Shown here piece by piece: positions 1,382 to 24,351 of a DNA stretch of 24,351 nucleotides. The stretch spans positions 1-24,351 of IMG/VR virus record IMGVR_UViG_3300010379_000056. One strand, written 5' to 3'. Numbering within the stretch: position 1 is the first letter of the stretch; every line of letters starts with the position of its first letter. Made by a program: the position numbers and the translations under genes. Under the pieces are notes generated by a model that had not been told where the DNA came from, searched no databases, and was given only the letters and a program-made list of their open reading frames with translations. Source of the DNA: a virus.

Positions 1382-2380
1382 TCAAGTGAACGTGAAAGCG
1401 AGATCTGACCCGGCCGTTGCGTCCCACTGGTTTGTGATGGTCATCGTCTGCGTGTACAGATCGTTGAGTGGCAGTTGATCTTCGAACTGGCTAATCACAC
1501 TGGCCGTGTTCATGCTGACCTCGAGCGAGTGCGTCCCATTATTGAGCGTCAAAGACGTCGTCTCGGTCGTCAGCCCTTCGTACGCGGTCCGGTCGTCAGG
1601 CGTCGGGCTATAGAAATTGACCGCCTGCAACGTGGTCTCCCGCCCGACGAACCGCATCAGGTTGACGAATCGGTTCGCCCAGAACCGCCGAGCAATCCGG
1701 TTCTTTGAGCTGAGTTTGAGGCTCTGGAATTGGGTGCGGGAAGTGCCGATCGTGAGGCCACCTGAAGCGTGAACGAAGAGATAGGGATTGATCGGCATCT
1801 GGTTGGGGCTGTCGGTCGGGGCCGGGAACGTGACCGCGGTCGGATCGGTGGAGCTGTCGAACTGGTTGCCCTGCGGAGTCGATGCCGACAGGTCCATACT
1901 GAGTGTGGCGATCGTGCCGTCCTCCGACACGTCGACGTCCCAGCCGTCCACCTTCGTTCCCAGATAGACCCGGCGCTTGATCGATCCGTCCGACCGCGTG
2001 ATCGCGTGGTAGATCGCCACCGAGGCCAGGTCGCCCGCTGGCTCAGTTGTGGTCCACGGCGACGTCTGGCCGGCGTTGATCGGCTGCGCGGCCCACTGGA
2101 GCAGGAACTGGCTCAAGGGCCCGGCATAGAGCTTGGTCACCAGCCGGCCCTTGCACTCGATCTTGTCCGACACGCGGAAAGCGTCGATGGCTACGCCGCC
2201 GCCATAGGGGACAGCCACCATGACCGGGCGAGGCCTCATCGTGAATGTGTTGGCCCCGTCGAGCCGGATGTAGAACGCGCTCGGCGTGGACGGGGGTGAT
2301 GTGTAGTTGTAGACCGTGGGGCTGGCTACCGGAGTCTTGTAAGCGGACTCCTGAACCAGAAGTAAGAATTCACGCGACAT
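1382..2380 (-). CDS. Probable major tail tube protein
   Basis: This 332-aa protein starts at ATG (2378-2380) with GCGAGG upstream. It is predicted to be almost all beta: the central part (KIECKGRLVTKLYAGPLSQF, then a Thr/Pro-rich loop and ASVAIYHAI) and the C-terminal half (NGTHSLEVSMNTASVISQFE) have the alternating pattern of tail tube proteins that polymerise into the hollow tail. It follows a probable tail terminator with a 12-base gap, and terminator then tube is the usual order. Its length fits tail tubes that carry an extra surface domain. Assignment rests on fold-like pattern and synteny rather than a diagnostic motif. A related decoration or sheath-like role cannot be excluded. Confidence 0.6.
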   Translation of the reverse strand: MSREFLLLVQESAYKTPVASPTVYNYTSPPSTPSAFYIRLDGANTFTMRPRPVMVAVPYGGGVAIDAFRVSDKIECKGRLVTKLYAGPLSQFLLQWAAQPINAGQTSPWTTTEPAGDLASVAIYHAITRSDGSIKRRVYLGTKVDGWDVDVSEDGTIATLSMDLSASTPQGNQFDSSTDPTAVTFPAPTDSPNQMPINPYLFVHASGGLTIGTSRTQFQSLKLSSKNRIARRFWANRFVNLMRFVGRETTLQAVNFYSPTPDDRTAYEGLTTETTSLTLNNGTHSLEVSMNTASVISQFEDQLPLNDLYTQTMTITNQWDATAGSDLAFTFT

Positions 2381-2965: not shown

Positions 2966-2967
2966 TT

Positions 2968-3819: not shown

Positions 3820-3821
3820 GG

Positions 3822-6800: not shown

Positions 6801-8345
6801 GGTTCTGGGTGCCGACGGGTCGCCGGTCAGAAAGGCTTTGCCGCCTGGAGTACCGCCGCCGCATGACTCGAAAATGCACCCGTTGACCGTTATCGATGCG
6901 TCGGGAAACGAAAGGAAATGCGGGTTGTCCGTGGTGGAATACGCGAAGTAATTGCCGTTGATCGAGCCGCCTACTCCCGTGGGACCACCGCCATCGGCAG
7001 CGGTGACCAGGAGATTGCCAGCGAAGTTTGATGCGGCTGGCCACTGTGGAAAGCCGTTGATGAACCATCCCGCGCCGCAAAAGTTGCCGGTGAACGTGTA
7101 CCCGCGATAAGCGCCGAAGTAGATTTCGAGGTCAAAGCTATTGGTACTGATGGTCCGCGTGCCAGACGTGTAGTTGTTGTTCGCCGCGAACTGAGCACAC
7201 TGAGTCAAGCCTTGGCCGGTGTACCCGATCGACGAGCTGAAGATGTTGTTCGAGAAGGTGAAGTTGCCGTCCCAGCTACCATCTGACCCGGTGCCGAATG
7301 AGTACGAACATCCGGTGAAGGTGCAGTTTGTAATCGAGAAGTTGGGATTCAAGCTCCCGTCATCAAGCGACTGGATTCCATTCTGGGTGCTCGTTCCGAA
7401 GTTGCTGAAGTCCGTATAGGTCGCTGTCGCCACTCCGAACGTGGAGTACGAGCCCGCTGTCATGTACGAGTTATTGCCGCCGAGCGAGAGGTCAGTCTTG
7501 ACCACGCAGTGATAGCCGCTCGTTCCATTCGCCACCAGCGTGTTGATCGCGTTCGATGCACCGAAGTTCCACACGCACGTCTGGCCGCTCGGAGGCCGGA
7601 AGCTGATCGTGCTCCCGTTGTTCATCGTGACGGTGGAGGCCGCCAGATGTGCGATGTCACCGCTGAGCGTGAGTTGATAGCCGAAGTTGAGCGTCAGCGA
7701 TCCGCCCGCGTTGAACGTCAGTGCGGGTTGACCGCCAGTCACGAACGCGGTCTTGCCGATCGAGGCGTTCTGGTTGAGCGTAACCGCCGCGCCAATGAAC
7801 ACATAGTCGTTCGTCGTGGGTTGCGCGTTGGCTGCCCAGATCGATCCGTTCCAGTTGCCAGCCGAGATCGCACCGCACCCGCGCGGGTCCGTCGCTGGCT
7901 GGATCAGGGCCGCGTTGATCCCGACGTAACCGCTGGCACCACTGGTGATCTTCAGCGTGCAGGACGTGCCCGATGGGGTAACGGACCCAACGAGCATGAA
8001 CGTCTCTGCATTGGAATTCGTGTAGACCATCCCCTGCGGGACGATCTGCTGATTCAGCGTTCCGCTGGAGAGCACCGTTGAGCCGTTGCTATCCAGGATC
8101 TGCCAGGTGCTGGTCGCACACCACGAGGATGGAGCCCAGAGCCCAGTGATCTGCGAATCCATCGCGATCCAGTACGCGGTGCTCGCGGTCAGTCCGGTGA
8201 AGTTCCACGAGGCCGTATTGCCCGAACTGCTCGAACAATAGAGCATCGTGTTCCCGTACCCGTAGCCCGCGCCGACAAGCCCGCTATTCCACGAGCCGGT
8301 CGTGCTGAATCCGGTGCCGCCATTGATGATGAACGTTGCGGCCAT
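3822..8345 (-). CDS. Giant beta-helix/repeat fibre-like protein (1507 aa)
   Basis: The largest gene of the window starts at ATG 8345, directly after the TAA of the upstream gene. Visible layout: residues ~1-150 are a beta-sandwich-like N terminus (FIINGGTGFSTTGSW; NTASWNFTGL) resembling the golvesin C-terminal-like module. Residues ~155-750 are Asn/Gly/Thr-rich with the rhythm of a right-handed parallel beta-helix. Residues ~765-875 carry six 20-residue repeats of the type AAGLxISGxxG. Residues ~882-1085 are a lectin/LamG-like domain. Residues ~1088-1447 carry about 17 further repeats. The C terminus has two GIDPEQ motifs. No signal peptide or membrane segment is seen. Such architecture suits a surface fibre or spike that binds or cleaves polysaccharide. 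Its place between capsid decoration genes and neck genes suggests a head-attached fibre rather than a tail fibre. The fibre role is inference; the repeats are directly visible. Confidence 0.85.
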   Translation of the reverse strand: MAATFIINGGTGFSTTGSWNSGLVGAGYGYGNTMLYCSSSSGNTASWNFTGLTASTAYWIAMDSQITGLWAPSSWCATSTWQILDSNGSTVLSSGTLNQQIVPQGMVYTNSNAETFMLVGSVTPSGTSCTLKITSGASGYVGINAALIQPATDPRGCGAISAGNWNGSIWAANAQPTTNDYVFIGAAVTLNQNASIGKTAFVTGGQPALTFNAGGSLTLNFGYQLTLSGDIAHLAASTVTMNNGSTISFRPPSGQTCVWNFGASNAINTLVANGTSGYHCVVKTDLSLGGNNSYMTAGSYSTFGVATATYTDFSNFGTSTQNGIQSLDDGSLNPNFSITNCTFTGCSYSFGTGSDGSWDGNFTFSNNIFSSSIGYTGQGLTQCAQFAANNNYTSGTRTISTNSFDLEIYFGAYRGYTFTGNFCGAGWFINGFPQWPAASNFAGNLLVTAADGGGPTGVGGSINGNYFAYSTTDNPHFLSFPDASITVNGCIFESCGGGTPGGKAFLTGDPSAPRTYTIQNCLTLPVDPGGNNMGVQLLNVFGAGTDPNHYVTVDVLHCTVCCGQNFAAHYSENGATGTGQIGLYKANLFWAQNMTSSNAYKLWDAGSPTSGGTSNVVSPTNADYNGGYQMQAGPYTGNTYTYAGNGYQGNYTATPGAHDINNTNPQFVDSTRCLATWGGTATGGGTATVAAALATLAANPALISQATTGLIPWVLAGFRPTNQTYHSASYPTDPSTQDAAGNSWTGTYPDVGAMAYQQTTFTFSAPGLAITGSQGADTAGPLPAAAGIAINGAFGASRGGFWPSLPGIAITGNDGAASWPINWGAAPLNITGTFGPSQGGFWPSFAGLAISGATGGANWPIYQTAAALEIFGNFGPPPVVYLVDTFQGAAGTSLGAHASDSGAAWDLLAGNTSVSLGGSGMVYLSGTQPSIWISTAAMPSSDNFEARYTFERLSSVMGTDTGVTLLMANPWTGARITFNWIESSSYFTFENAGTYVGPTASGPALNVPWFIKIDVSTSGGNTTFAASYATSYGGAWTALCSYTVATPASPPNVGLYFVGTSATVSTGAHIGNLHVTDIPPANIVSIIAPESGLTIGGFVGAASWPSYFSAAGLPITHNLGPFNVALGGSFTFSAAGLIISGYPGAANQTFAWGASGLLISGVEGAASEAASYPAAGQSISGALGGLGLAEFVSAAGLQISGAFGPFNLSLGGSYTFYAGGLVISGYPATAGELVACGAAGIAITDTPAAASGGPGPFVPGLQISGLFGPDTVVVETLNSGLAITGAPGTTTGGPGPYCAGLLITANWGQFANQVGGLYAFSAAGLQISGFYGPMTSAEVGIAASGLDISGFYGPAAGTPSFPCPGLAISAFYAPATNATVLAAAPGLQITDAWGATGETAGIGLAGLQISDLPGGLGLSYAYTISLPGLLISAYPGPTTGGAAIPALWLPYEFATTLMPSALDTTDAWGIDPEQTAPLSAALDTGGDPFGIDPEQSTPIMTGLDGGP
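4010..5090 (-). repeat. Tandem 60-bp coding repeats, block 2 (about 17 units)
   Basis: Within the giant gene, units of about 20 codons repeat with consensus A-A-G-L-x-I-S-G-x-x-G followed by a variable 8-12 residue spacer (for example AAGLQISGAFGP, AAGLIISGYPGA, ASGLDISGFYGP, CPGLAISAFYAP). Some units are longer (24 codons) because of a GGSxTF or GGLYAFS insert. Two larger blocks repeat: GPFNVALGGSFTFSAAGL with ISGYP, and GPFNLSLGGSYTFYAGGL with ISGYP. This points to duplication of multi-unit segments, not only single units. Confidence 0.85.
5730..6055 (-). repeat. Tandem 60-bp coding repeats, block 1 (six units)
   Basis: Six units of the same 20-residue consensus lie before the lectin-like insert. 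They show a clear two-unit (40-residue) periodicity: FGASRGGFWPSLPGIAITG with DGAASWPINW, then FGPSQGGFWPSFAGLAISG with TGGANWPIYQ. The alternation suggests the array grew by doubling a pair of units. It is separated from block 2 by about 200 codons of non-repeat sequence. Confidence 0.85.
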
Positions 8346-8597: not shown

Positions 8598-8606
8598 GGA
8601 GTACCT

Positions 8607-8679: not shown

Positions 8680-8680
8680 A

Positions 8681-9136: not shown

Positions 9137-9151
9137 TGGTTGCCTCTGAGG

Positions 9152-9553: not shown

Positions 9554-9571
9554 GATCCCTCCTAAGGACGA

Positions 9572-9596: not shown

Positions 9597-9616
9597 CTGA
9601 TGCGGGTTTCGAGGGA

Positions 9617-10129: not shown

Positions 10130-10156
10130 GATCGAGTCCTTAGCCGAGAGGGAGGG

Positions 10157-10642: not shown

Positions 10643-10653
10643 GAGACACCTCC

Positions 10654-12051
10654 TTAGCAATTGATGATCACGCCGAAGTCGGGACGGATGACGCCAAGGG
10701 CATAGCCGAAGTCCACCGTCACGAAGAGCGCCTGGTAGATGTGGACGTAGCTCACCATGACCCGGAGAGGGATGCCCATCAGGTCGAGATACGACACGTC
10801 CACGACGTTCCGGGCCTCGTCCGGGGTTGCGATCGGCCGCAAGGCCAGGGCGATGGCGTATTCATGCATCGCCAGGTTGGTGTAACTCTGGTAAGTCGCG
10901 GTGCCGGCCGTCACGACGTCGGCCGCCACGATCGGGGTGGCGAGGACAACGACGGTGGAGCTGGTGTAGCTGGCGATCTGGTACAGGTTGGCGCCCGCTG
11001 CATAGCTGCCGGCCGTCGAGAAAGCGAGCCACTGGCCGACGTTGGCGGTCGTGAAGCTGGCACTGGCGGCCGTGCAGGTTGTCGAGCCGAGAGTCGTGGT
11101 GACGGTGGCCGTCACGACCGAAATCGAGCGAGCCGTGGTGACGACCGAGCCGGAAGCCACGAGGGTCGTGGGAATGGTCGTGGTGATGGTCAGGGACGTG
11201 TCGGACGCAACCGCCGTCACCTTGTATTGCACCTTCGTCGGATCGTTGCCGAAGACGAGATACTGGCCGACGAGGTTGGCGCCCGAGGGGCCGGCCGTGG
11301 TAAAGTTGGTGTTCAGGCCCGTGATGGTTGCCGAGCCGCTGGTGAGCGTGAGCTGCCCGTACAGGATCGAGCCCGAGGCCGTGGGCATCTGCTGGTCCCA
11401 CTTGGGACGGAAGTTGAAGGCGTGCGCGAGATCAGCGTCTTGGCGGGCCGCGCTAGCGATGGTCGCGCTGACCAACGACTCTTGCACCCAAGCCGAGTCA
11501 CCGAGCATCTTCTGATAGACCCGGTTGTGCACCATGAGGGAAAGCTTGTCGGAGTCCTCGAGCGGCACCTTCTGGTCCGCCAGCGTTCCCCAGGCGTTGA
11601 GCTGATCGGCCACGCCAACCTCGCCCTGGATCGCGCCGGTGATGGCGGCGTTGGCGTTGAAGTTGCCGGGGGTGATCAGCGCGGCAATCTGGCCGTTCAG
11701 GTACTCACGCGCCCTCTTGTAGAGGGGGTCAAAGAACTTCTGGGCGAGATCGACGGCGGTCTGCCATTGCTCGAAGTCCTGGAACTGCAGAGCAGCGCCC
11801 GCCCGGTTCTGGAATACGAGCGGGATGTAGTTGGGGCTGACGGTCTGGCCGGTCAGGATGCCGTTGCCGATCGACGCCAGGGGGCCGAAGTCGGGGAAGT
11901 AGACATCGACCGTCTTACCGATGCGGGCCGCTTCGGGCTTGACGTCCTTGTACACGGCGTTCAGCAGGGCAGTTTGCCCGACCTTCGCCTTGTTGTACTC
12001 GTCAGCGCCCGCGACGAGCGTCTCGAAGAATGCAGAGAAATTATTGGCCAC
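10654..12051 (-). CDS. Major capsid protein with beta insertion
   Basis: This 465-aa protein starts at GTG 12051, with AAGGAGG 7 bases upstream. It forms the head shell. The N-terminal part (MANNFSAFFETLVAGADEYN; SPNYIPLVFQNRAGAALQFQ), the middle part (AHAFNFRPKWDQQMP) and the C-terminal part (ALALRPIATPDEARNV; SYVHIYQALFVTVDFGYALG) match capsid proteins of the P22-like coat lineage as I recall them. Residues ~228-388 interrupt this with two tandem beta modules (SGSATITGLNTNFTT and SLTITTTIP; TCTAASASFTTANVGQWLAF and STVVVLATP). The insertion is probably exposed on the shell surface. A scaffold-like gene lies two genes upstream. No frame damage is seen. Confidence 0.8.
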   Translation of the reverse strand: MANNFSAFFETLVAGADEYNKAKVGQTALLNAVYKDVKPEAARIGKTVDVYFPDFGPLASIGNGILTGQTVSPNYIPLVFQNRAGAALQFQDFEQWQTAVDLAQKFFDPLYKRAREYLNGQIAALITPGNFNANAAITGAIQGEVGVADQLNAWGTLADQKVPLEDSDKLSLMVHNRVYQKMLGDSAWVQESLVSATIASAARQDADLAHAFNFRPKWDQQMPTASGSILYGQLTLTSGSATITGLNTNFTTAGPSGANLVGQYLVFGNDPTKVQYKVTAVASDTSLTITTTIPTTLVASGSVVTTARSISVVTATVTTTLGSTTCTAASASFTTANVGQWLAFSTAGSYAAGANLYQIASYTSSTVVVLATPIVAADVVTAGTATYQSYTNLAMHEYAIALALRPIATPDEARNVVDVSYLDLMGIPLRVMVSYVHIYQALFVTVDFGYALGVIRPDFGVIINC

Positions 12052-12096
12052 GAATGGGCCTCCTTAAAATGGAAGGGACGTGGACAGGGGGCAGGC

Positions 12097-12167
12097 GCAA
12101 CGCGGGGGCTCTGGAGCCGTGATCTGGGAGACATGACCCACGGCATTGAACAGAGCCCCCGCGTTGC
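12097..12167. promoter_or_regulatory. 17-bp perfect inverted repeat upstream of the capsid gene
   Basis: GCAACGCGGGGGCTCTG (12097-12113) recurs as its exact reverse complement at 12151-12167, with a 37-base loop. It lies between the stop of the 64-aa gene (12167-12169) and the ribosome site of the capsid gene. The right arm touches the stop codon. It may be a terminator, an RNA-stabilising stem that helps boost capsid expression, or a protein binding site. No U-run follows. Confidence 0.75.
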
Positions 12168-12361
12168 TACTGCGGAGAAATAGAGTGCAGAAACACGATG
12201 GCCGCCACGAAGCGGTCGTAATTGAAAGTCGCGGGGTTGTACCCCGGAGTCTGCGTCACGCCTGCGAGCGCCCGGGAGATCACCTCACGGTACTCTTCGC
12301 CGTACCGCTCCACGTATCGCTCGACCTCGGCGTCCGGAATGTCAGCGAATGATGGGGCCAC
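12167..12361 (-). CDS. Small phage protein (64 aa), unknown
   Basis: A frame of 64 codons begins at GTG 12361 with AGCAGG 6 bases upstream and ends at TAG (12167-12169). It overlaps the end of the scaffold-like gene by 20 bases, which suggests translational coupling. The protein is acidic and helical (PDAEVERYVERYGEEYREVI) with a hydrophobic C terminus (DRFVAAIVFLHSISPQ). No family recognised. Position between scaffold and capsid fits an assembly accessory. The start is chosen by the ribosome site because no ATG is available. Confidence 0.55.
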   Translation of the reverse strand: MAPSFADIPDAEVERYVERYGEEYREVISRALAGVTQTPGYNPATFNYDRFVAAIVFLHSISPQ

Positions 12362-12965
12362 TGACGGCCTGCTCTCGGGCTCGTTGCTCTTGCCGCGCCT
12401 TGACAGCTTCGCTGATAAAATTCCGGTTGCGCGGGTCCAACATGAAGCGAGGATTCGCCATAAGCTCCGGAGTAAGCACTGTGCCGTCGCCGCCATCGTT
12501 GCGAGCGCCCCGGCCTTCCTCGCCACGCATTGTGAGCCCATAGGAGGTCTGCGCCGCCTTGCGTGCCGCCGCCATGTTGGGGGGCTCTGCGTCCTCAAAC
12601 GCATAGTGCGCCTCGGTCTTGAGCTTCTTGAGGACACCTTTGAGCGCCACCTCGTCGGGCTCGTCCGCCTCCGCCTTGTACTCCGCGAGCTTCCACAGGT
12701 GCTTGACCGCGCCTTCGCGGGCCTTCTCGCCCTTGGCTAGCTCGGAGAACTTGTCGAAGTGGTTGCGGTCGCGGATCTTGGCCTGCAAGTCGGCGATCTG
12801 GGTTGCAGCCTCAGGCGACGTCTTGAGCTTGTCGCGTTCGTCGCTAACCTCGGTCAGCGCATCGCGGTACTCATCGCGCTCGGAGGTGAGGGTCTGCAGC
12901 TGGGCTGTGAGCGCCTCAACCTGACGCTCGAGGATCTTCAGTGCTTGATCTTCACCGCTGGCCAT
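12342..12965 (-). CDS. Probable capsid scaffold protein
   Basis: This 207-aa protein starts at ATG 12965 with GAAAGG upstream. Residues 1-75 are a strong coiled coil (ILERQVEALTAQLQTLTSER; DALTEVSDERDKLK). A charged helical middle follows, and a C-terminal segment (LTPELMANPRFMLDPRNRNF) matches the short motif I know from phage scaffold-like proteins. Scaffold proteins guide capsid assembly and then leave. Its position one gene before the capsid gene supports this. No protease gene is visible nearby, so removal without cleavage would be expected. Confidence 0.65.
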   Translation of the reverse strand: MASGEDQALKILERQVEALTAQLQTLTSERDEYRDALTEVSDERDKLKTSPEAATQIADLQAKIRDRNHFDKFSELAKGEKAREGAVKHLWKLAEYKAEADEPDEVALKGVLKKLKTEAHYAFEDAEPPNMAAARKAAQTSYGLTMRGEEGRGARNDGGDGTVLTPELMANPRFMLDPRNRNFISEAVKARQEQRAREQAVSGPIIR

Positions 12966-12977: not shown

Positions 12978-13445
12978 TCAGGAGTGCTTGGCGATGAACA
13001 GGGCCGGTCCGAGATCGGCCAACATCTGCTGTTTCTGCTCGCCCTTCTTGTAGGTCTTCTGGATGCTCTTGCAGGTGCCGTGGAACTTCTCCGAGGTCTC
13101 ACGGTCGCCGTGGTCCTCTGAGGCCTCGTGCACGTCGCCGTAGGCGTTGCTGAGCCCATCCAGCGTCTTGCACGCGCCCTCGAGCGCCTCGCCCGGGTCA
13201 TCACTGTACGACGTGTCGCCGAGGTTCGTCTCGACCGTGCCGCCCAGCCTCATCATGTGGCCGCGGAGGTCGTGTTGGCGCTGGTACGCTTCCTTGTGCC
13301 GCTTGTCGAACCACTTGGCGAGCTTGGGCATCGAGCGGTCGCCCTGCTTGAAAGCGTGCTCTTGCTTATGGAACTTCTCCGAGGCCGTGGCTTCGGCGTC
13401 GTGGGCGGACTGGAGGGCGGAGAGAACGTCGGGATTGGCGCTCAT
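12978..13445 (-). CDS. Ferritin-like four-helix protein, ligand-poor
   Basis: This 155-aa, all-helical protein starts at ATG 13445, overlapping the previous gene by ATGA. Its helix pattern resembles bacterioferritin: an N-terminal helix with Glu18, a basic second helix (KLAKWFDKRHKEAYQRQHDL) ending at LGGT, and a last helix pair joined at HGD (the bacterioferritin turn is VGD), with equal spacing to the C-terminal LG. By eye the di-iron ligands other than Glu18 are replaced (second-helix Glu and His become Ala and Arg; the last ExxH is absent). If the match is right, this is a ferritin-fold protein that no longer oxidises iron and may serve as a structural or internal head component. The alignment is manual and unconfirmed. 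Confidence 0.5.
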   Translation of the reverse strand: MSANPDVLSALQSAHDAEATASEKFHKQEHAFKQGDRSMPKLAKWFDKRHKEAYQRQHDLRGHMMRLGGTVETNLGDTSYSDDPGEALEGACKTLDGLSNAYGDVHEASEDHGDRETSEKFHGTCKSIQKTYKKGEQKQQMLADLGPALFIAKHS

Positions 13446-13594
13446 GGCTTAGGGCCTTGTTCCTTGGGTTGCTTCTTGGGGCGAAGATTGCCTGTTGCCC
13501 ATTCCGTGGCCAGGTGATCCAGCACGCATTTTGCCCGCTGGTCGGGTGTTTTCTTGTCCCAAGGGATCTTATCGGGCTTAGCTGTGTGGTTCAT
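13442..13594 (-). CDS. Small phage protein (50 aa), unknown
   Basis: A 50-codon frame from ATG 13594 (MNHTAKPDKIPWDKKTPDQR) to TGA at 13442-13444. It overlaps the upstream gene stop by ATGA (13591-13594) and the downstream gene start by ATGA (13442-13445), which strongly supports translation as part of a coupled chain. The product is basic and polar, with a short Trp-containing helix (CVLDHLATEWATGNL). No family recognised. Confidence 0.65.
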   Translation of the reverse strand: MNHTAKPDKIPWDKKTPDQRAKCVLDHLATEWATGNLRPKKQPKEQGPKP

Positions 13595-14889
13595 GCTGCG
13601 AACGCTGCCGCGCCTCCCTGTAGCATGCTTCGGACATGGCCGGTGATGTTTTGTCGAGCCTCTCGCATGACCTGCCCAGGATTGTCGCCCGCGTGCAATC
13701 TCTCGGCCGCTCGGTTCAATTCGCTGGCGACGGGGCCGGATCGATTTTTGAGCGTGTGGTACACGCCCATGACGCCCGCCGCTTCCTGGCTGACTTGTCC
13801 AGTCGCCTCGACATCGATGTGCGATCTCCCGCGCTCTGCTAGCGCCTCGCTGTTCTTGCTCTTGCTCACCAACGCGAATAGCTTCTTGTCGCTACTGAGC
13901 GACTTGGACACATCGGCGTCAGCACGAGCACGATGCAACATGAGCGATTTTTCTTCCTCTGTTTCGCCGAACAGACTCCGTGAGGTCGTCTTGAGAGTTG
14001 GGGCCGCCTTGGCGTTGTCGATCAGACTCTTGAGCGTTTCGTTGTTCGCCCTCCCCTTGACCGCCATGCTGTGCACTTCGATCTGCTGAGCGTGCGACAA
14101 GCCAGAGCCGCCGATAATGCTGGCCCGTTCCATCGGAATCTCTTGGTTGACCACTTTCTTGAACAGTCCAGGTTCAAGCCCCGCCATGGCCATGCCATGC
14201 TTGGCGGTCGATTCTGTCATAGGGATGCCATGCTCAGCGATTTTGCTCTTGTCAATTCCGGCCTCACGAAAGAACTTTGCGGCGTCAACGGGTGTGCCGC
14301 GTCCCTCAGCAATGTTAGTCACGGCACCTTTCATCCGGGCTGTTGCTGCATCAGGGGCATCGATGTAGCGAGCGGTGACTTTCTCCACTCCAAGCCGGTT
14401 AGCAAGGTCAAGGCGATGGTGGCCATTCACCACAAATGTCTTGCTGTTCTCAGGATCGCGCCACACTGAGATGACGCCCGCGCTCTCTGGATTCCAGTTC
14501 TTAACGCCGTGCAATTCGCTCGAAACGCCATGGGCACCCGTGGCATTGAGCTTGTACTGGAACCGATCGGGGTCGAATGCTACGTTCCTGACGCCAATCT
14601 GCACCACGTCGCCGGGCTTGGCGAACTTCTCGGGAGTCGCCTGTACGTTTGCTGTTTCACGATTGCTCTTGATCTTGGCTGCTAACTTGAGCCGCTCTGC
14701 CGTGCCGCGCTTGGCTCGTTCTGCTGCGAACGCGCGAACCTTTGCAACCGCCGCGTCAGTCTTTGACGGCTTGCCGAATCCCAGATGTTTCTGAGTCTGG
14801 ACTGGGCGCGCATTCGGGCCGCCGGGATGGAATGACCCACCCGACCCGATAAACACATGCTGCCCGTCGTCGAGAGTTACCCAGCCCAC
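13591..14889 (-). CDS. ParB/sulfiredoxin-like domain protein with shared N-terminal tag
   Basis: This 432-aa protein starts at GTG 14889. The first ~20 residues (GWVTLDDGQHVFIGSGG) match the neighbouring 186-aa protein. Residues ~40-90 are Lys/Ala/Arg-rich. Around residues 98-178 lies a ParB/Srx-like segment: IGVRNVAFDPDRF, then a FVVNGHHRLDLANRLG motif (the G-x-H-R core that contacts a phosphate in this superfamily). The C-terminal half is helical without recognised motif. ParB-like domains occur as nucleases, CTPases or kinases, and here the exact activity is unknown. Location between portal and scaffold suits minor head or ejected proteins, so a virion-packaged effector acting on host DNA is plausible. 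That is inference. Confidence 0.65.
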   Translation of the reverse strand: MGWVTLDDGQHVFIGSGGSFHPGGPNARPVQTQKHLGFGKPSKTDAAVAKVRAFAAERAKRGTAERLKLAAKIKSNRETANVQATPEKFAKPGDVVQIGVRNVAFDPDRFQYKLNATGAHGVSSELHGVKNWNPESAGVISVWRDPENSKTFVVNGHHRLDLANRLGVEKVTARYIDAPDAATARMKGAVTNIAEGRGTPVDAAKFFREAGIDKSKIAEHGIPMTESTAKHGMAMAGLEPGLFKKVVNQEIPMERASIIGGSGLSHAQQIEVHSMAVKGRANNETLKSLIDNAKAAPTLKTTSRSLFGETEEEKSLMLHRARADADVSKSLSSDKKLFALVSKSKNSEALAERGRSHIDVEATGQVSQEAAGVMGVYHTLKNRSGPVASELNRAAERLHAGDNPGQVMREARQNITGHVRSMLQGGAAAFAA

Positions 14890-14895: not shown

Positions 14896-15456
14896 CTACT
14901 TCAGAAAAGATGTCTGGCCGCGCTTGTCGCCGCGCTTCATGTCGAACATGAACTTAGTGACGCCCTTGCCTGTGTTGATGGGCTTGGGTGCGCCCACGGC
15001 CGATCGCTGGATGAGCTTGAATGTGTCCGCCTCATTCTTCGCGTGCTCGATAGCGCGGGTGGTGGCGGGGGAATCCTTCTCACGGCGGACGATCGCAGCT
15101 AGTTTGTTCTCTCGCGGAATCAGCGCATTCTTGCGATCGATGCTCTTCTGGAAGTCAGGACCTGGCTTCATCCTGGCTTCAGCTGCTTTCTGGGCTGCGA
15201 ACGCTTTGGTATGTAAGGCTGCGGCTCGCTCAGCTCGTGTCCCCTTTCCTGATCGATGCGCGTCAGCCTGCTCCCGCAGACTCGGCCTGCTCTTCCCCGT
15301 GGCCTTCCCTATCGCTGCCTTGCTGCGTGCCGCTAGCGCCTTGCCGCGATCCTTGCCCCCTGCGCCAGAGCTGATCGCCCCGCGCGTAGCCAGCACCTTG
15401 CCGCCGCCGCTGATGTAGACGTGCTGGTCGTCGTCGAGCGTCACCCAGTGTCCCAT
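14896..15456 (-). CDS. Lys/Ala-rich head-cluster protein with shared N-terminal tag
   Basis: This 186-aa protein starts at ATG 15456, overlapping the stop of the previous small gene by one base (TGATG). Its N terminus (GHWVTLDDDQHVYISGGG) is nearly the same as that of the next protein downstream, but the rest differs: a long basic, alanine-rich region (KALAARSKAAIGKATGKSRP) and a C-terminal segment with KFMFDMKRGDKRGQ. Composition suggests a DNA- or shell-binding internal protein. No enzyme motif is visible. It may be the non-catalytic partner, or a substrate, of the same targeting mechanism as the ParB-like protein. Confidence 0.65.
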   Translation of the reverse strand: MGHWVTLDDDQHVYISGGGKVLATRGAISSGAGGKDRGKALAARSKAAIGKATGKSRPSLREQADAHRSGKGTRAERAAALHTKAFAAQKAAEARMKPGPDFQKSIDRKNALIPRENKLAAIVRREKDSPATTRAIEHAKNEADTFKLIQRSAVGAPKPINTGKGVTKFMFDMKRGDKRGQTSFLK

Positions 15457-15608
15457 CAGTGCCTCTTTCCCCGCGCCTTCTTCGCCGCGTTACGCCTCGC
15501 CACACTCAACGCGATCGCGACCGCTTGCTTCTGTGGCTTGCCCGCCGCCATCTCAGTCTTCACGTTGGCCGATACCGCGGCCTTGCTCTTGCCTTGCTTC
15601 AGGGGCAT
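15456..15608 (-). CDS. Small conserved basic phage protein (50 aa)
   Basis: The frame runs from ATG 15608 to TGA at 15456-15458. It begins MPLKQGKSKAAVSANVKTEM and continues with the sequence AGKPQKQAVAIALSVARRNA. I recognise this pattern (MPLxxGKSKxxxSxNIKxE followed by GKPQKQAVAIAL) from many small phage proteins of unknown function found next to portal genes. Both ends overlap neighbours by one base (TGATG), so it is translated in series with the portal and the 186-aa protein. It is Lys/Arg-rich and may bind nucleic acid. Confidence 0.8.
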   Translation of the reverse strand: MPLKQGKSKAAVSANVKTEMAAGKPQKQAVAIALSVARRNAAKKARGKRH

Positions 15609-17239
15609 CAGTCGCTCGCCTCCGATGTGGTCTGCGGACCCGTCGCGTTGCTCTGCCCTTGCTCGTACCCCGATTCCGCGCCCTGCGTGATGTCGGCTTG
15701 GCTCTGGGCCTGCTCCTCCTGGCGCTGATCCTGCTCCTCGCTGGGCATGGTTTCGGAGGCCGGCGGGGTCAGCTCTTGAGGCAGGATCTGCTTGACCTCA
15801 TCCTCGTCTTCCGCCACCTGCTTGATATGCTCAATGGCCTGGTCGCGGTTGAGCCCGTACCGCTCCATGCAGACCGTCACCCGGCTCTTGATGCCCACCT
15901 GCATCTCCCACTCGTCGCTCTGGTCGCGGTCCGGTCCCGGGATCGGGATGCGGGGCTCTGCCCAGGAGAGCAGGAGTTCGAGCTGCTTCGCCTGCTCCAT
16001 CAGGTCGGCATGGCCGTAGAAATTGCCCGCCGCCGCCAGGATCTTGCGGGCCAGGCACATCTCCGCGAGCTGGTAGATCGGCCGCCGCTGGCGTGCTCTG
16101 GTGAGGAGGGGGCTGGACTTGATGATCAGCGCGATGCCGCTCGTCGCATCCTGATAGTCTAGCTCTAGGGCCGTGTACGGCAGATCAACTGCGGTCGCTA
16201 CTTGCTTGATGTACTTTTCGAGGTCGAGCCAGATGCTCTCAATCGCTAGCTGGGCTTGGAGGTATTCGGCTGAGGGTTCTCCACCGTCGGCGTAGCCTTC
16301 GCCGGTGTAGCCTGTTCCGCCACGGCAAAGTCGCATGAAGCGACCAGGGCCGACCTCAGGAGTAAAAGTCGGACTAACGTTTCTAAACACGCCAATCGGC
16401 CGGCCGTACTTGCTGATGAGCTCGTCAAGTTCAGATAGGCGATCGTTGACTCGCAGCTCAGCTTTGCGTAGGAACGTGCCCGGTCCAGGCGTCCAGAACT
16501 GTCGTACCGGAGCGCGATAATGAAGGAATGCGAACGGGATCGTGCCATAGGGATTGGGATCTCCCTTGCCGCTCTGCGGGTACGCGATCCGCGCTCCTGC
16601 CGTCTTGTCCGCGCTGTACTGGTCGGTCAGATACGTCCTGACCTCATCCTCGAACCAGAGCCGGTATCGCGTCCGCTGATTGTAGCGGTCGATCGTGACG
16701 ACTGCGAACGCCTGGCGGGGGTCCTCAGGGTCGGTGAAGACGGTGAACTCATCGCCGCCCCAAAGCTGGAGATCGACGGGCTTGTCAGGGTCGTTCGTGC
16801 ACTTGATCTGCACCGCGCAGACGTCGTTCAGTGTGGCCTGGCACTCGGCGTGCTGCATCACGCAGTCGATGTGGTTGGTGTCGTAGACTTGCTCGAGAAG
16901 GCTATCCGCCAGGCCGTTCCCCACGACTGTCCGTTGAGGCCCGGGATTGTAGGTGTGTTCGCAAAGTCGATCCACAGCCTGTTGCACAAAGCCACTCTGC
17001 CGGCGCGGTCTGCCGGCAAAATCAAACTCAGTCTCTGCCTCCCGCCGCGGCTGATATCGATCCGATTCGAGGTCATAGAACGCCTGATTCTCGATAGCGG
17101 AAGCGAGCCGGGGCCGGTGGTTGCGCAGGCCGGACTCGACTTCCTTCATGATCCAGGACTTGTTGTCGCTGGAGAAGGAGCTGCCGGCGTTGGGGAGCGC
17201 CGGAAAGAGGCGCATATCTGTCATGCCGCCGTCAGCCAA
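15608..17239 (-). CDS. Phage portal protein
   Basis: The frame allows a TTG start at 17239 (GGAG 9 bases upstream) or an ATG at 17224 (MTDMRLFP); the product is 543 or 538 aa, and the choice is open. The portal forms the ring at one head vertex through which DNA enters and leaves. The SPP1/gp6-like character is seen in the N-terminal helical region, the middle domain with GDEFTVFTDPEDPRQAFAVV and RTRYRLWFEDEVRTYL, then the sequence GTIPFAFLHYR, and a helical C-terminal core (ELDELISKYGRPIGVFRNV; IESIWLDLEKYIKQVATAVD). The tail is Gln/Glu-rich and acidic. The frame is intact, in contrast to the terminase immediately upstream, whose last frame it overlaps. Confidence 0.85.
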   Translation of the reverse strand: MADGGMTDMRLFPALPNAGSSFSSDNKSWIMKEVESGLRNHRPRLASAIENQAFYDLESDRYQPRREAETEFDFAGRPRRQSGFVQQAVDRLCEHTYNPGPQRTVVGNGLADSLLEQVYDTNHIDCVMQHAECQATLNDVCAVQIKCTNDPDKPVDLQLWGGDEFTVFTDPEDPRQAFAVVTIDRYNQRTRYRLWFEDEVRTYLTDQYSADKTAGARIAYPQSGKGDPNPYGTIPFAFLHYRAPVRQFWTPGPGTFLRKAELRVNDRLSELDELISKYGRPIGVFRNVSPTFTPEVGPGRFMRLCRGGTGYTGEGYADGGEPSAEYLQAQLAIESIWLDLEKYIKQVATAVDLPYTALELDYQDATSGIALIIKSSPLLTRARQRRPIYQLAEMCLARKILAAAGNFYGHADLMEQAKQLELLLSWAEPRIPIPGPDRDQSDEWEMQVGIKSRVTVCMERYGLNRDQAIEHIKQVAEDEDEVKQILPQELTPPASETMPSEEQDQRQEEQAQSQADITQGAESGYEQGQSNATGPQTTSEASD

Positions 17240-18733
17240 GGTGCACAGCTCCGCTCAGGGTGAGGCGACAAAAACCGGGCGAGACGCTCACGGATTCGTG
17301 GTACGTCGGTGTGCCGCACAAGATCTCAAGGGCGGCGAGCTCGTCGTCGGGCTCGAAGAGGAGAAGGCCGTCGGTGTTATCACTCATATGTAAATATGCG
17401 AATCATTGGATGATGCTGTCTGAACGATCGGGTGATCTTCCAAGCACCTCAAGAACCTTTTCCGGCGCGAGTAGCCTGGTCTGGTTCCCGACCAAATCGT
17501 AAGTCAGGACTACCAACTCTTCCCGTAGCAGCGCCCACCAGGCCCGCGGCTGGTTGTGGAAAGGATGTTGTCACGAGCTGGTGGGATATCGGTCGTCCAG
17601 GTGCCGCCCGTGGTCGAGCCTGCGCCTCAACTTCCACGCCGCTTCCGTGCGGAGGTTGGCGAAGCCTTTACGGTCTTGAGAGCGGCCGCACCCGGCATAG
17701 CCGAAGGCCTCTCCAAGGCCGTGCTTGACGAGGTGGTTGCGGAAGTCTTGACCGAGGCCGAACTTGTCATAGGAGATGCTGGTGGCATCGACTGCCAAGC
17801 GGAGAGCGAGGCTCGCTGTTTCTTGCGCTGCATCAGCCAGAGGTAGAGAATTCCCGGCGTGACAATCGAGGATGCCATGGTCGTCCCTCAAAAGGATTGA
17901 AGTCGACTCGCGGCCGACGCGCTTGCTCAAGTCGATCGCGATGCAGCAGGTACGGTGAATGGGATGGAGGCAGGTTCGGGCTCTGTACGGATGTCGCCTA
18001 ATCTAGCCGGGGTTCAGGGGTGAGTTGATCGGAATAGAAATCCGGTAAGTCGTCTTTAATGTGGCTACGCACTCAGAGTGAGGCACAGCCGAAGCGTCGG
18101 TAACATGCGTCGAGCCAGGAGCAGTCAGCAACTCCATAGGGCGACTCTTCCAGGTCAGCATGGGGTGAATCAGTGCTCGGAATCTGGATCGCACAAACAG
18201 CCTGTATTGTGCGACCTGGTCGGGCCGATTCTTATCAGCTTGCCGAACAAACTCGATGAATCGGCCTTCCGACCTAATCGGATTGCTGATGGCATCGAGC
18301 TTGCAGTACTTGAGGCTCTCGATTGCGTCCCAGATCTCGTCTTCGACGCCGGATGCCTCTTCGACGATCACCAGCAGGTTCTTGGCGTGCTGGGCGCTGG
18401 CCCGTGCCACGCTCTTTGTGGAGTATCCCAAGGCTTGCCATCCAGGTCGCATTTCGACCAGAGCGGGCTGTCCTTGATACCGCCGGTGATGCGAGAGTGA
18501 AACGGCGGGCGGCTGCCGTCGATCGTGCGCCGCTTCTCTTTCCTGGTAACACTGCCCAAGAGGGTTCGCGAGGTCCCCGTGACGATGCAGAGAGAGTCTT
18601 TTCGGGTATAGAGCGACCAGGGAACAAGACCGCCGCCCCAGTAAGCCTTGTCGAGCGCTTTTCTGGAGTAGACCACCATGACGGCGAGTTCGGCGACCCC
18701 CTCTTCGTCGATGTTCTTCTGCGGCTTACTCAT
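17232..18733 (-). pseudogene. Large terminase subunit, degraded pseudogene
   Basis: Three frames together spell a large terminase (the ATPase-nuclease that packages DNA). The N-terminal part starts at ATG 18733 (MSKPQKNIDEEGVAELAVMV). It shows no Walker A motif; the sequence jumps from GGGLVPW to SLYTRKDSLCIVTG, suggesting an internal deletion. Near 18450 a lost A in an A-run explains a shift: restoring it joins PLWSK to MRPGWQALGYS. The next frame has the Walker B-like LLVIVEEASG. A second shift gives IQIPSTDSPHADLEESPYGV. In-frame stops follow at 18073-18075 and 17998-18000. A further shift returns to the nuclease core (IAIDLSKRVGRESTSIL; SISYDKFGLGQDFRNH; SPDRSDS). Stops at 17571-17573 and 17403-17405 interrupt the C terminus. 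A 51-codon ATG frame (17232-17387) is probably only its tail. The protein cannot be functional. Confidence 0.85.
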
Positions 18734-18940: not shown

Positions 18941-18986
18941 GTGAGTTCTGGAGCGTGGAAGAGTGTTTAACGCTCCACGCCTCACG
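18941..18986. repeat. Inverted array of 7-bp units, copy 3 (degenerate)
   Basis: The right arm (18971-18986, CGCTCCACGCCTCACG) is clean and its reverse complement is CGTGAGGCGTGGAGCG. The left arm is decayed (GGAGCGTGGAAGAGTG) and the core is TTTAA rather than AATTAA. It sits between the stop of the 129-aa gene (18982, inside the array) and the 59-aa gene, in the same arrangement as the other two copies. Confidence 0.75.
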
Positions 18987-19371
18987 ATTCTTGGTGGCTA
19001 CTGTTCGGCGCCTCGCCGCAGCACCGCGCCGTGCCGTCGGGATTCGGGAATTTGCAACGCACCCGGTCGATCAGGATCTTGACCTCGTTAAGTCGGATTT
19101 CGGCATGGCTGATGCGTAACTCCAGCTCGACCTGCACGCGGGTCATCGCCCGAATGTCGTCCAGCAGGGCCTTTCGGTCCGCAGCATCCTCGTCCCTGCG
19201 GGCTTCACGAAGCTTATGGTAGGCGGCCACGGCCGCGGACAGAACCGCCGAGCCGACCGCAATTGTCGCGCCCGTCCAAGTCAGGACTTGATCGTGGGTG
19301 AGCGCGCCGACCAACCCGCCTGCGCCGCCAGCGGCGGCGAAAATCCTAATCGATTGGAAAACCCGCATCAT
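18982..19371 (-). CDS. Membrane-anchored coiled-coil protein, holin/spanin-like candidate
   Basis: I start this at ATG 19371 (MMRVFQSIRIFAAAGG; AAAGGA 5 bases upstream), giving 129 aa. Residues ~5-55 hold two hydrophobic segments (FAAAGGAGGLVGAL and ATIAVGSAVLSAAVAAYHKL). Residues ~57-105 form a charged helix (LREARRDEDAADRKALLDDI; ELELRISHAEIRLNEVKILI) typical of coiled coil. The C terminus has cysteines (VRCKFPNPDGTARCCG). The layout suits a small phage membrane protein of the holin or holin-partner type. Its stop lies inside heptamer array copy 3. Alternative: a host-envelope protein carried by the phage. Confidence 0.6.
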   Translation of the reverse strand: MMRVFQSIRIFAAAGGAGGLVGALTHDQVLTWTGATIAVGSAVLSAAVAAYHKLREARRDEDAADRKALLDDIRAMTRVQVELELRISHAEIRLNEVKILIDRVRCKFPNPDGTARCCGEAPNSSHQES

Positions 19372-19437
19372 AATATTCCTTTGGTCCGGTGCCGCACACG
19401 AAGCCGACATCGTCCCATTTTTTCTTCGGGCGGTTAT

Positions 19438-20174: not shown

Positions 20175-21197
20175 CTAGCTGGCCATTGTGGCGGACAAAA
20201 CAAGTACCTGGCCGTTCCAAGTGATCGTCACTGGATCGGGAGGCATTGCCGGTGTGGATGGAGCGTTCGGAGTTCCGCTGATCGTGAGGTTGTACACGCC
20301 AAACGGCACGTTCACGCTGATAGGGCCAGGCGTTGGTGTTGGCGTTGGCGTGGGGGTTGGACCAGGTGGCACCACGACGTTGCCACCAAGAGAGTTGAAG
20401 TAGGTGCAGATCTGATTCAGTGTGAGTCCGTTCGGAGCCAGGCCAGTCGTTGAGTGAACCATCGTGGGATTTACATACGAGTGGACTTCACCGTTGACCG
20501 AGGCCGCACCGTATTTGGCGATGGCACCCCATGTGATTGTCCCGACCATGCCCCATGTGGCGATTGCAATTCCCTGAGCAGTCGGGTAGGCGAAACCCGT
20601 AAAGCAGTGGCCGTTCGAGTCGTTGGGCTCGCCGGCGATGTCCCAGACGAAACCGCTCTGCTGTGGTGCAGGGTCGATCCAGGCGTCAGGCATGCTCATG
20701 CCAAAACAGACGCCGTTGGTAATCCATACGCTTTGAGTCAAGGCCAGCTGACTGGTCGGGTCGAGGTTGATCGAGCCGAGCAACTTGGATCCGTCAGGAA
20801 ACCCCGTGCTTTGGAGGTAGGAGAGATCCGTCCCGATATCGCACCCTTGATCACTGAAGGGGTCGCCGGGGATGTAGCCCCCAACCGCCGAGTAATCGTT
20901 GATGATCTGCTTATCGGTATAAATGAACGTCTTGCCGATCTGACTGGTGATGTTGGCCAGGAAGTGAGCGTGGTGACTGATCACGCAACAGCCGAGTTCG
21001 GTGTTCATGAACGTCTGGGAGAGCCCGCCGGCACACGAGGCCGACACCGCGATTCTGGCCGGGGGTGTCGGGATGGGCGCCGCAAGCAGGCTCAAGCCAG
21101 AACGGAAGGTCCGCTCTTGTGTCTTCGGTTTGCGACGCCCGAGAATCACCTTCCGGCCTTGAATCTCGATAGTTTTGAGTGGCGTTCGTGGCATCAT
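20175..21197 (-). CDS. Papain-like fold protein with Pro/Thr linker and C-terminal beta domain
   Basis: This 340-aa protein starts at ATG 21197 or 21194, overlapping the stop of the previous gene. Residues ~60-230 resemble a family of papain-fold proteins known from phages and actinobacteria: a Cys segment (ELGCCVISHHAHFL, Cys70/71), a YLQSTGF region after SDQGCD, then His197 (SNGHCFTGFAYPT) and the WGMVGTITWGAI motif that echoes the papain NSWG strand. A Pro-Thr repeat linker (about residues 275-288) leads to a 50-residue beta domain. Cys and His positions suggest a peptidase or transglutaminase-type active site, but catalysis is not proven. It could act on peptidoglycan or on envelope proteins. 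Confidence 0.6.
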   Translation of the reverse strand: MMPRTPLKTIEIQGRKVILGRRKPKTQERTFRSGLSLLAAPIPTPPARIAVSASCAGGLSQTFMNTELGCCVISHHAHFLANITSQIGKTFIYTDKQIINDYSAVGGYIPGDPFSDQGCDIGTDLSYLQSTGFPDGSKLLGSINLDPTSQLALTQSVWITNGVCFGMSMPDAWIDPAPQQSGFVWDIAGEPNDSNGHCFTGFAYPTAQGIAIATWGMVGTITWGAIAKYGAASVNGEVHSYVNPTMVHSTTGLAPNGLTLNQICTYFNSLGGNVVVPPGPTPTPTPTPTPGPISVNVPFGVYNLTISGTPNAPSTPAMPPDPVTITWNGQVLVLSATMAS

Positions 21198-21718: not shown

Positions 21719-22261
21719 CGGGTTACCCCCATTCTCGATTTAAATGAGCGCTCTTCAAGGTTGATGCCAGCTTGGCCAGTGAGGAGTCGTGGCAGGATTC
21801 AGTGTCGACTGGCCGGAGCTGCTTGCCAAACGCTGGCAGGTCGGGCGTGATACCCTGTGGGTGAAGAGTTGGGCACCCTCTAGGAGAATCTATACTCAGT
21901 GTACGACAAGCACGCCGCACTGATTCAACCTTCGGTGCAGTATTACATTTATGTGCCTACCCGCAAAGTAGATACGTCGTTGCGGACGCGCAATGAAAGA
22001 GCACCTGGATGCCGAACCATCGTCCGTCGAGTGAGGCTGTCGGCACACCATCGGCCGGCTGCGAATCAAGACCAGGACCAGCCGACCGACATCTCCGCTC
22101 CACGGGTAGCAGAGTTTGCCAGCCGAGAACGAGCCACCCGTTGCCTCATGCTCGGGGTATTAGCCTAACGCGGCGGAGCCGCAATCAAAAAGAATGAGCA
22201 AAACCACCGTTCTCCGACCAGAATGAGGTTTGGAATCGGCCCCAACCCGAAGGAGAACGCC

Positions 22262-22474
22262 CTAAAGACGCTGTCGCGATTCCTCGCTAAGTTCTGCAGC
22301 CTGATCGTCCCCGTGCTCTTCTGCTTTGACCGCGTGATCTTCGAGCGGTATTTTCCCTTCACCAATGGACCGGCTCTTGAGGGATTCGTCGATCACTTTC
22401 TCAAGATCCGACGAAAGAGCTTCGTGGCTTTCTCTGCGGAATAGTTCGAGACGCTGGTCAATTTCGCCAGCCAA
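22262..22474 (-). CDS. Doubtful small charged helical ORF
   Basis: This 70-codon frame with a TTG start (22474) is rich in Glu, Asp and Arg (EIDQRLELFRRESHEALS; DLEKVIDESLKS). Its composition looks coding, but it has no ribosome site, no recognised family, and a competing frame on the plus strand. It could be the 3' part of a decayed host gene. Confidence 0.2.
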   Translation of the reverse strand: MAGEIDQRLELFRRESHEALSSDLEKVIDESLKSRSIGEGKIPLEDHAVKAEEHGDDQAAELSEESRQRL

Positions 22475-23104
22475 GCGCCTGGTCCGAGAGGTCGGTGCCG
22501 AATATCACTACCTCAAAGGTCGGGTGATTGACCCTGGGAAGGCACCAGGGGAAACTGGGAATGGCCCATGGGAGGTAGACTCCCGAGCGGTCAGGCGGCA
22601 GGAAGGTGGTACTTCCCGCCGCCACTTTGCGCCCACGACTCGTAAACCCGGCGTCAACGATACAGCGGCACGCACATGACAGCATACTTGGAGTGACTCA
22701 CTCGTGCCAAGGATGGATGGTCGCGCCAAAAGAGGGCCAAAGCCGCGATCGGCCAATCGTGGAATGGCTCAAGTGGCTCTGCCATAGTCGGTCAATCCCT
22801 GGCTGCCGCTAATAGGAGTTGGCAGAACTTGACGTGGGTCAGTCCCGAGCGGCGGAAATCCGCGAGGCTTGCCGACCACTAAATCTCGCGGGACGACTGA
22901 ACCATGGTGGGGCCTCCGAGTAGTCAGGAACCGGCCCTATATTGACGAGTCTCCGTTTGGCTCAAAAGATGCGGTTCACCGGACGGACACGTTGTTCCAC
23001 TACGTTTTTTCAGGGAATTTCCCGGTCGAGATGGGGTCTTAGAGGCCAAAACGCGTTCCTTCCTACGCAACATAGGTTAGCGAAAGGCGATGTCCGCACT
23101 TTTC

Positions 23105-23133
23105 CGTCCACCATTTAATCGAAAAGGTGGACG
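23105..23133. repeat. 8-bp inverted repeat downstream of the AMMECR1 gene
   Basis: CGTCCACC (23105-23112) pairs with GGTGGACG (23126-23133) across a 13-base A/T-rich loop. It is about 70 bases past the AMMECR1 stop. No U-run follows on the minus transcript, so a terminator role is uncertain; an operator or REP-like element is equally possible. Confidence 0.45.
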
Positions 23134-23202
23134 TCAGAAGATAATAGCGCGCGGACCTTCACGACTGTCTGAGGAGAGAGCAGAACAGCCGACCCACAAG
23201 AA

Positions 23203-23793
23203 TCAGTATGTGGTACTATGTGTAATCGTGTGGATCATGTCTTCATCATCCCAGGCCTCGGTTTCGAAGGCATGAAGTTCGAGGTTCTCTACCTCCAATC
23301 TCTCCGTGCTGATGCCGGCTTTGCAGAGGAGCACCTCGAGAAACTCTGCGGGAGTCCGGAGTCCAAATCGCTTTGGCACCTCGGGCAACAGAAGCCCGGA
23401 ACGTCGCCCTTGAATGATCAAGAGTCCATGCCGGCCGAGAACGATCTCACTTGGCCTGATACGCTTCAGTGGCGTGAGGGCGCTGATCCGGATGGTCAAC
23501 CGCGGCAGCTCGTCTTCGGTGACAGAAGGGAATCGCGAATCGTCGGTCGCCGAGGAAATCGCCTGTCGGATCACGGATTCCAGCAGCGGGCGGCTTGGCC
23601 GGCACTCGCCCCGACAGCCCCGCAGTCCGCCATTTTCGCGGAGGCGGAGAGTAACAAAGCTTCCACGGTGCTGGAGCAAGCACGGAGAACTGGTTGGATA
23701 CTCGGAGACAACGCCGCTACCCAGGAATTCATGGAGGGCTTTCCGGGCGGCGTGAAGCGCGAACCGTTTTTCCTGTGGGCCGATAGGAAGCAT
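23203..23793 (-). CDS. amrA: AMMECR1-domain protein (AmmeMemoRadiSam system protein A)
   Basis: I chose ATG 23793 (MLPIGPQEKRFALHAARKAL, 196 aa); a GTG ten codons earlier (23823) would leave only a base between AAGG and the start. The conserved motif LRGCRG (family LRGCIG) near residue 62 is followed by RPLLESVIRQAISSATDDSR, FPSVTEDELPRLTIRISALT and a C-terminal RRSGLLLPEVPKRFGL then EFLEVLLCKAGI, all diagnostic of AMMECR1 domains. In bacteria it belongs to the AmmeMemoRadiSam set (with a Memo-like protein and a radical SAM enzyme), whose chemistry is still debated. Partners are not in this window. The tail (FETEAWDDEDMIHTITHS) is longer than usual. It is a host gene. Confidence 0.85.
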   Translation of the reverse strand: MLPIGPQEKRFALHAARKALHEFLGSGVVSEYPTSSPCLLQHRGSFVTLRLRENGGLRGCRGECRPSRPLLESVIRQAISSATDDSRFPSVTEDELPRLTIRISALTPLKRIRPSEIVLGRHGLLIIQGRRSGLLLPEVPKRFGLRTPAEFLEVLLCKAGISTERLEVENLELHAFETEAWDDEDMIHTITHSTTY

Positions 23794-23972
23794 AGGGCTC
23801 GCTCTCTTTGCTTGTGACGTCACCCCTTGATCATCATCTCTGGCATACCACTCGCCTCCATGATAGATCGACGGTCATTCGACTTCGACAGCCCGCCGAT
23901 TGCCAATGTTGGCTCGTTCCGGATTGCCGTGCTGATGTATGAGCGCCATGAGATATGACATGACGACCGGCC

Positions 23973-24351
23973 TCACATCTCTTGAGCTTCTGTTCCGAAT
24001 CGCTCAGTGAGTGCATGTTTTTCATCGACGCCGATCAGCGCGTTGAACTCGGCGAACGTCATCAGCCGCTCAGTCTCGCGTCGGGTCGTTCCATCCTCCT
24101 TCAATGTGCGATACACCGTTTCGATCAGCCGGGCCGATGCGAAAAGGGCGGTGAGTGGATAAAGGATCATCTGGAAACCGAGATCGACAAGGTGCTGCTT
24201 CGGCAGGACGGGCGTCTTGCCACCTTCGATCATGTTGGCCACGTTGGGCGCCGGCGAGCGGCGGCCGATGGCTTGGAGGTCGTCAAGCGAGGTCGGTGCT
24301 TCAACAAAGCTGGCATTGGCGCCGGCTTCGCGGGCGGCTTCCACGCGGCGA
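23973..24351 (-). CDS. Isocitrate lyase/PEP mutase family protein, 3' part
   Basis: The frame enters from the right edge and ends with TGA at 23973-23975. The visible ~125 residues carry typical family motifs: AAREAGANASFVEAPTSLDD (the VEAP metal-site region), ANMIEGGKTPVLP, LGFQMILYPLTALFASARLI and a terminal MTFAEFNALIGV. These enzymes cleave or form C-C or C-P bonds in 2-oxo acids (methylisocitrate lyase, oxaloacetate decarboxylase, phosphonopyruvate hydrolase). The catalytic lid (the KKCGH-type loop) lies outside the window, so I cannot tell which reaction. The true start is beyond the edge; the earliest in-frame GTG here (24344) is not the start. Host gene. Confidence 0.85.
   Translation of the reverse strand, partial: RRVEAAREAGANASFVEAPTSLDDLQAIGRRSPAPNVANMIEGGKTPVLPKQHLVDLGFQMILYPLTALFASARLIETVYRTLKEDGTTRRETERLMTFAEFNALIGVDEKHALTERFGTEAQEM

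Follow-up and report, generated by a model that had tools for sequence, protein, structure and literature searches.

The stretch of DNA analyzed here (hereafter the window) is the IMG/VR virus record IMGVR_UViG_3300010379_000056 over its full length of 24,351 bases, in which the phage genes lie on the minus strand and the large terminase gene, TerL, is present as a relic fused to a remnant of TerS. Read from right to left, the window contains host DNA, the phage end, a peptidase-like gene, small genes, a holin-like gene, the terminase relic, the portal gene, head genes, the capsid gene, a fibre-like gene and tail genes (see the table below). The phage boundary at ~22.0–22.15 kb was set by the point at which the homology of a related locus, G009 (identical to L024), to the window stops. 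Because the phage module is joined to host DNA at this boundary, the window represents a fragment of an integrated prophage of an uncultured bacterium, and the phage is a temperate one. At the shared phage end, G009 adjoins a different host gene, encoding a response regulator with a GGDEF domain; the family accordingly inserts at different loci, flanked by AMMECR1 in the window and by the GGDEF response regulator in G009. The window covers one prophage end only; a tyrosine integrase is encoded by the relative G003 (phrog_1, 9.9e-20) and a similar-looking one by G008. A further record, G001, is 99.99% identical to positions 656–12372 of the window and adds 3.2 kb on the tail side; it stops at window position 12372, before the terminase is reached.

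The relic spans positions 18733–17394 on the minus strand and is separated from the portal gene by the stretch 17232–17393. Frameshift-aware protein-to-DNA alignment against three relatives revealed three frame changes, near 18471, 18205 and 17964, and four in-frame stops, at 18075–18073, 18000–17998, 17573–17571 and 17405–17403, the last of which sits within a few residues of the normal TerL C-terminus. This confirms the lesions counted in a preceding sequence-only reading of the window. The same reading had taken the Walker A segment to be deleted; the segment is in fact present at ~18680–18640 in frame −3, where the relatives' VYSGNAIGKDYW has become VYSRKALDKAYW and the key residues of the P-loop are substituted (GNAIGKD to RKALDKA). 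Lost from the relic are the C-terminal part, and thus most, of TerS and ~77 N-terminal residues of TerL, together ~400 bp in comparison with L024. The 17 remaining N-terminal residues of TerS (MSKPQKNIDEEGVAELA, compared with MGRPQKNIDEEAVAELA in L011) run straight into TerL at a position equivalent to ~residue 78 of the L024 protein. As a result, no single frame extends over the ATPase and nuclease domains, and an intact Walker A motif is missing. The terminases of the intact relatives possess P-loop, Walker B and RNase H-like motifs and resemble PHROG 2, the large terminase of tailed phages (phrog_2 at 2e-24 for the L024 homologue), whereas the relic, with its damaged P-loop, lost N-terminus, frame changes and stops, yielded weak matches to phrog_7579 and phrog_5902 at 18003–18452. 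A search for solved structures matching the TerL profile found none.

The relic differs at 32 of 132 TerL residues (24%) that do not vary among 12 intact copies, compared with 7 of 117 for L014, a relative with an open but truncated frame. Changes of this extent at otherwise invariant residues rule out assembly error as the cause of the lesions. The codon pattern of the relic is that of a long-decaying gene. No second assembly over the relic was found, and an exact 30-mer of the relic occurs in no other viral contig. Collectively, these data demonstrate that the terminase at this locus is dead.

The time of its death was estimated in two ways. In a codon model with a separate omega (dN/dS) for the window branch, the relic yielded 0.43 as opposed to 0.11 elsewhere (twice the log-likelihood difference, 2dlnL, of 36); an omega of 1.0 over the whole relic branch was also rejected (2dlnL 9). 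Read as a mixture, ~35% of the relic branch would be neutral, roughly equivalent to ~0.1 (0.107) substitutions per site since death. The number of stops, 4 in 428 codons, corresponds to ~0.11 at the simulated rate (95% range ~0.03 to 0.28). These two rough estimates agree, which places the death of the gene at ~0.1 neutral substitutions per site ago.

The particle module other than the terminase has stayed under selection since then. On the window branch, the portal has an omega of 0.083, and values of 0.2 (about what neutrality since the death of the relic would give) and 1.0 were rejected (2dlnL 18 and 81, respectively); the capsid has an omega of 0.026, with 0.15 rejected (2dlnL 22.5), the synonymous branches of both genes being long and their absolute lengths therefore uncertain. 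The portal value is slightly above background (2dlnL 4), as is that of the L024 portal, whose terminase is intact (2dlnL 3.5). For the tube-like gene, comparison with L073 gave a dN/dS of 0.11. Neutral simulation at t=0.1 predicted 50.6 premature stops in the 17,964 bases of the 19 other intact genes (minimum 34 in 200 runs), and none was seen. Portal, capsid, scaffold, the tube-like gene and the 1507-amino-acid fibre gene are all open, as the sequence-only reading had stated, and so are the tail genes. Of the two alternatives which that reading had offered, continued selection on the particle genes is supported by the branch omegas and the absence of stops, whereas a very recent inactivation is ruled out by the omega of the relic, the omegas of portal and capsid, and ~18 kb free of stops. 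A relaxation of selection in the other structural genes, with dN/dS near 1, which it had named as evidence to the contrary, is not what these values indicate.

Features of the window, with positions in the 24,351-base stretch.
Feature	Positions	Strand	Observations
Host chromosome	22110..24351	.	AMMECR1 23203-23823 (PF01871 7.7e-42); PEP mutase-like 23973-24350 (PF13714 0.0018)
Peptidase-like gene	20175..21197	-	Intact, near prophage right end; 84.5% in L011, dN/dS 0.15; phrog_19005 (unknown function); papain-like type read from sequence only
Holin-like gene	18982..19410	-	Intact; phrog_20 7.5e-5; 84.5% in L011
TerS remnant, first 17 residues, MSKPQKNIDEEGVAELA	18683..18733	-	Fused in frame to TerL remnant; resembles L011 TerS start (MGRPQKNIDEEAVAELAFAGCSTNEIALIVGC) and, more weakly, L024 TerS
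TerL remnant, N-terminal piece, frame -3	18464..18682	-	Damaged P-loop; tblastn of L024/L009 TerL, 68% identity; frameshift-aware alignment
TerL remnant, rest of ATPase domain and RNase H-like nuclease domain	17394..18476	-	Walker B LLVIVEEASG; two further frame changes, four stops
Portal protein	15608..17239	-	Intact; likely start ATG 17224-17221; phrog_64 1e-5; >20 IMG/VR relatives at 80-93%
Head-region gene	14896..15456	-	N-terminus conserved in relatives
Head-region protein	13591..14889	-	phrog_21 2e-50 (C-terminal part of family annotated portal); weak ParB-like match
Ferritin-like protein gene	12978..13445	-	PF00210 6.9e-7; within head module, conserved in several relatives at dN/dS 0.22-0.33
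Scaffold-like protein	12342..12965	-	Intact; phrog_194, 0.0016
Major capsid protein	10654..12051	-	Intact; phrog_283 1e-20
1507-amino-acid fibre-like gene	3822..8345	-	Intact, open; identical in G001
Tail tube-like gene	1382..2380	-	Intact; 89.5% identical in L073, dN/dS 0.11; "tube" is the name given in the sequence-only reading, no family match
Start of 744-amino-acid tail/baseplate-like gene	3..464	-	Rest lies in G001

Relatives were collected from IMG/VR by their portal (29 loci; 34 with an alignment search); a search of 50,697 phage records with the portal gave no match. Most of these relatives have an intact terminase of 484–510 residues upstream of and beside the portal, and an intact copy occupies this site in ~20 of them. 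Three others carry truncated fusions. In L014, TerS is fused in frame at ~residue 73 to residue 127 of TerL, without Walker A; in L011, a TerS piece is fused to ~residue 212 of TerL; and in L017, TerS residue 28 is fused to ~residue 226. All three junctions differ from that of the window, and portal and capsid are intact in all three. The portal and capsid omegas of the window, L011, L014 and L017 are the same as those of relatives with an intact terminase. In L014 (positions 1117–2514), the helix-turn-helix part of TerS and TerL lacking Walker A form one open fused frame in which the nuclease motifs are kept and omega is not significantly raised; this may be the product of a deletion that happened recently, or a protein that still has some function.

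The TerL sequences of the window, L011, L014 and L043 (a contig that begins inside TerL) form one clade, and no intact member of the clade comprising the window, L011 and L014 was found. As L011 and L014 have a close TerL ancestor in common, their deletions may be partly nested. The window, however, keeps a stretch of TerL that is lost in L014 and L011 and has lost a stretch of TerS that is kept there, so its deletion is a separate event; that of L017 is also separate. The TerL and portal trees differ, indicating that the module is mosaic. In L043, an OrfB_IS605 (TnpB-type) gene (1312–2358, minus strand) lies between the terminase piece and the portal. Two unrelated types of TerS gene precede TerL in the family, a DUF5681 type and a short helix-turn-helix type (L094 2212–2541, L024 6334–6690).

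A different arrangement is seen in G003 (IMGVR 3300004152_000273). Here only a small gene separates holin from portal, the old site containing neither a TerL nor a relic of one, and an intact TerL of 523 amino acids is encoded after the tail genes (phrog_2, 2.4e-18). G003 therefore shows that this phage family can carry TerL at another place in the genome. The start of its portal is the closest to that of the window (93.8% identity over residues 8–141; 93.3% for the next best). The L083 contig also encodes an intact TerL (3231–4718), which shares 81% identity with the G003 protein and has no portal or tail genes next to it.

That the head and tail genes were still selected after the motor had died suggests that another terminase now does the packaging, be it one encoded elsewhere in the same phage or one belonging to a relative. 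The explanation that we tentatively prefer, and rate slightly below an even chance, is that in this temperate phage lineage a terminase at another place took over and the window carries the relic of the ancestral one. The relic would be what remains of the ancestral TerS–TerL pair in its original position between holin and portal, while the lineage would have kept making DNA-filled particles using another terminase. The most likely source of the latter would be a second TerL elsewhere in the same phage genome, outside the window and beyond the tail genes as in G003, and we infer that the window's own phage has such a gene. Several observations weigh against this explanation. A second terminase, which the sequence-only reading had proposed to look for, is not encoded in the 27.5 kb of this genome that are covered by the window and the 3.2-kb extension of G001. 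Moreover, the TerL of G003 begins ~0.2 kb past the last small tail gene, whereas G001 has none within 0.5 kb, and L072, with a tail gene 85% identical to that of the window, is without one within 1.3 kb past its last small tail gene. A G003-like TerL is also rare, being found at high identity only in G003 and L083, and the tree lends weak support to the portals of the window and G003 being close.

Of the two main rival explanations, ordinary decay of the prophage appears somewhat unlikely: the terminase would by chance have been the first gene to break, and the apparent selection would reflect either recombination with active phages in the recent past or too high an estimate of the time since death. 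It would fit the mosaic module with its differing TerL and portal trees, and the window relic is alone in being old, the L014 and L011 remnants having a near-normal omega and looking recently truncated. In incomplete prophages, however, terminase, portal and lysis genes are reported to be lost preferentially (PMC7744054), so that portal and lysis genes go along with the terminase; in the window they are kept, and the genes on either side of the relic are intact. The agreement of the two age estimates likewise speaks against decay, and even one third of that time would predict ~15 stops elsewhere, compared with none seen. Alternatively, a phage making its own heads and tails might rely on a related phage or prophage in the same cell for the terminase that packages its DNA in trans, which we regard as unlikely. 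Relatives are present in the sample of the window's twin record (3300032160), namely G005 with an intact TerL as well as L051, L077, L078 and L091, and with portals 80–93% identical across the close family the motor of a relative could plausibly dock. Defective prophages are known to rescue each other in this way. According to PMC11389934, the majority of O157 prophages are able to package DNA even though fully functional ones are few. A common sample is not a common cell, however, and with TerS lost too the DNA would need to keep the recognition site of the helper. A stricter form of supply in trans, by which the lineage has repeatedly given up TerS–TerL, keeps selected heads and tails and spreads only via the terminase of coresident relatives, in reverse of a satellite, seems to us distinctly unlikely.

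Particle genes that stay under long-term selection once the motor is lost would also be expected of a host-domesticated particle (tailocin-like, gene-transfer-agent-like or cargo-carrying) that has no need for its own packaging motor, but we consider this very improbable. A tail-only device would have no use for heads, portal and scaffold, all of which are retained here; the family is a mosaic one whose host locus varies (next to AMMECR1 in the window and to the GGDEF gene in G009) rather than being a single fixed place; scans of sequenced host genome contigs with the portal and with AMMECR1 were both without match, so that no relative was obtained from sequenced hosts; and no cargo gene was identified. 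A motor-less cargo particle thus has no positive support. With portal, scaffold and capsid retained and with TerL at another place in G003, replacement of the terminase is a simpler explanation than the toxin-carrying or motor-less particle envisaged in the sequence-only reading. Because the window is a piece of a prophage, none of the packaging explanations, whether replacement, supply in trans or decay, is proven.

Among the systems compared with the window, G003 belongs to the same family, with a portal start 93% identical and a holin ahead of the portal; the window differs from it by the relic at the old site and by the intact TerL that G003 carries after its tail module. Defective and domesticated prophages as described in the literature (PMC7744054; Bobay et al. 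2014, as cited in PMC11389934) are integrated elements with one function gone and the rest under purifying selection, and the same was found here; the window family differs from those accounts in that it keeps the whole head-to-tail module and loses the terminase alone, repeatedly. Defective prophages have been discussed as elements that helpers may move (PMC11389934). The defective prophage pool of E. coli O157 (cited in PMC11389934) is similar in that a coresident prophage could supply a missing function; for the window such a rescue is hypothetical. A gene transfer agent needs a functional terminase that packages host DNA; that of the window is dead at this locus, but another may be encoded elsewhere. 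A stable locus in a host lineage would also be expected, against which the mosaic trees and the two host flanks speak. The window does not resemble a PICI-type phage satellite, which uses the structural proteins of a helper and usually has its own TerS, since it has a full structural module and has lost TerS. Two points are unusual: selection has maintained the portal and head genes although the terminase, and it alone, is lost, and this has happened more than once at the same junction within a single family. A literature search of titles and abstracts on terminase pseudogenes and second terminases found no description of such a case.

Among the remaining genes, two neighbouring small structural-type genes (9617–10129 and 10157–10660) are 46% identical and likely arose by duplication. 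When members sharing the right arm were sought via the peptidase, L011 was the only one found. Searches of the window for RNA families and tRNA gave no match.

Terminase normally serves as the hallmark by which a complete phage is recognized, and a prophage that has lost it counts as dead. The terminase at this locus in the window prophage died long ago, selection has continued on the other particle genes, and in a relative the gene is found at another place. If the terminase was replaced elsewhere, it would be wrong to call such prophages defective on the basis of the gene next to the portal; if instead it is supplied in trans, a capsid-making phage would be able to live on borrowed packaging.
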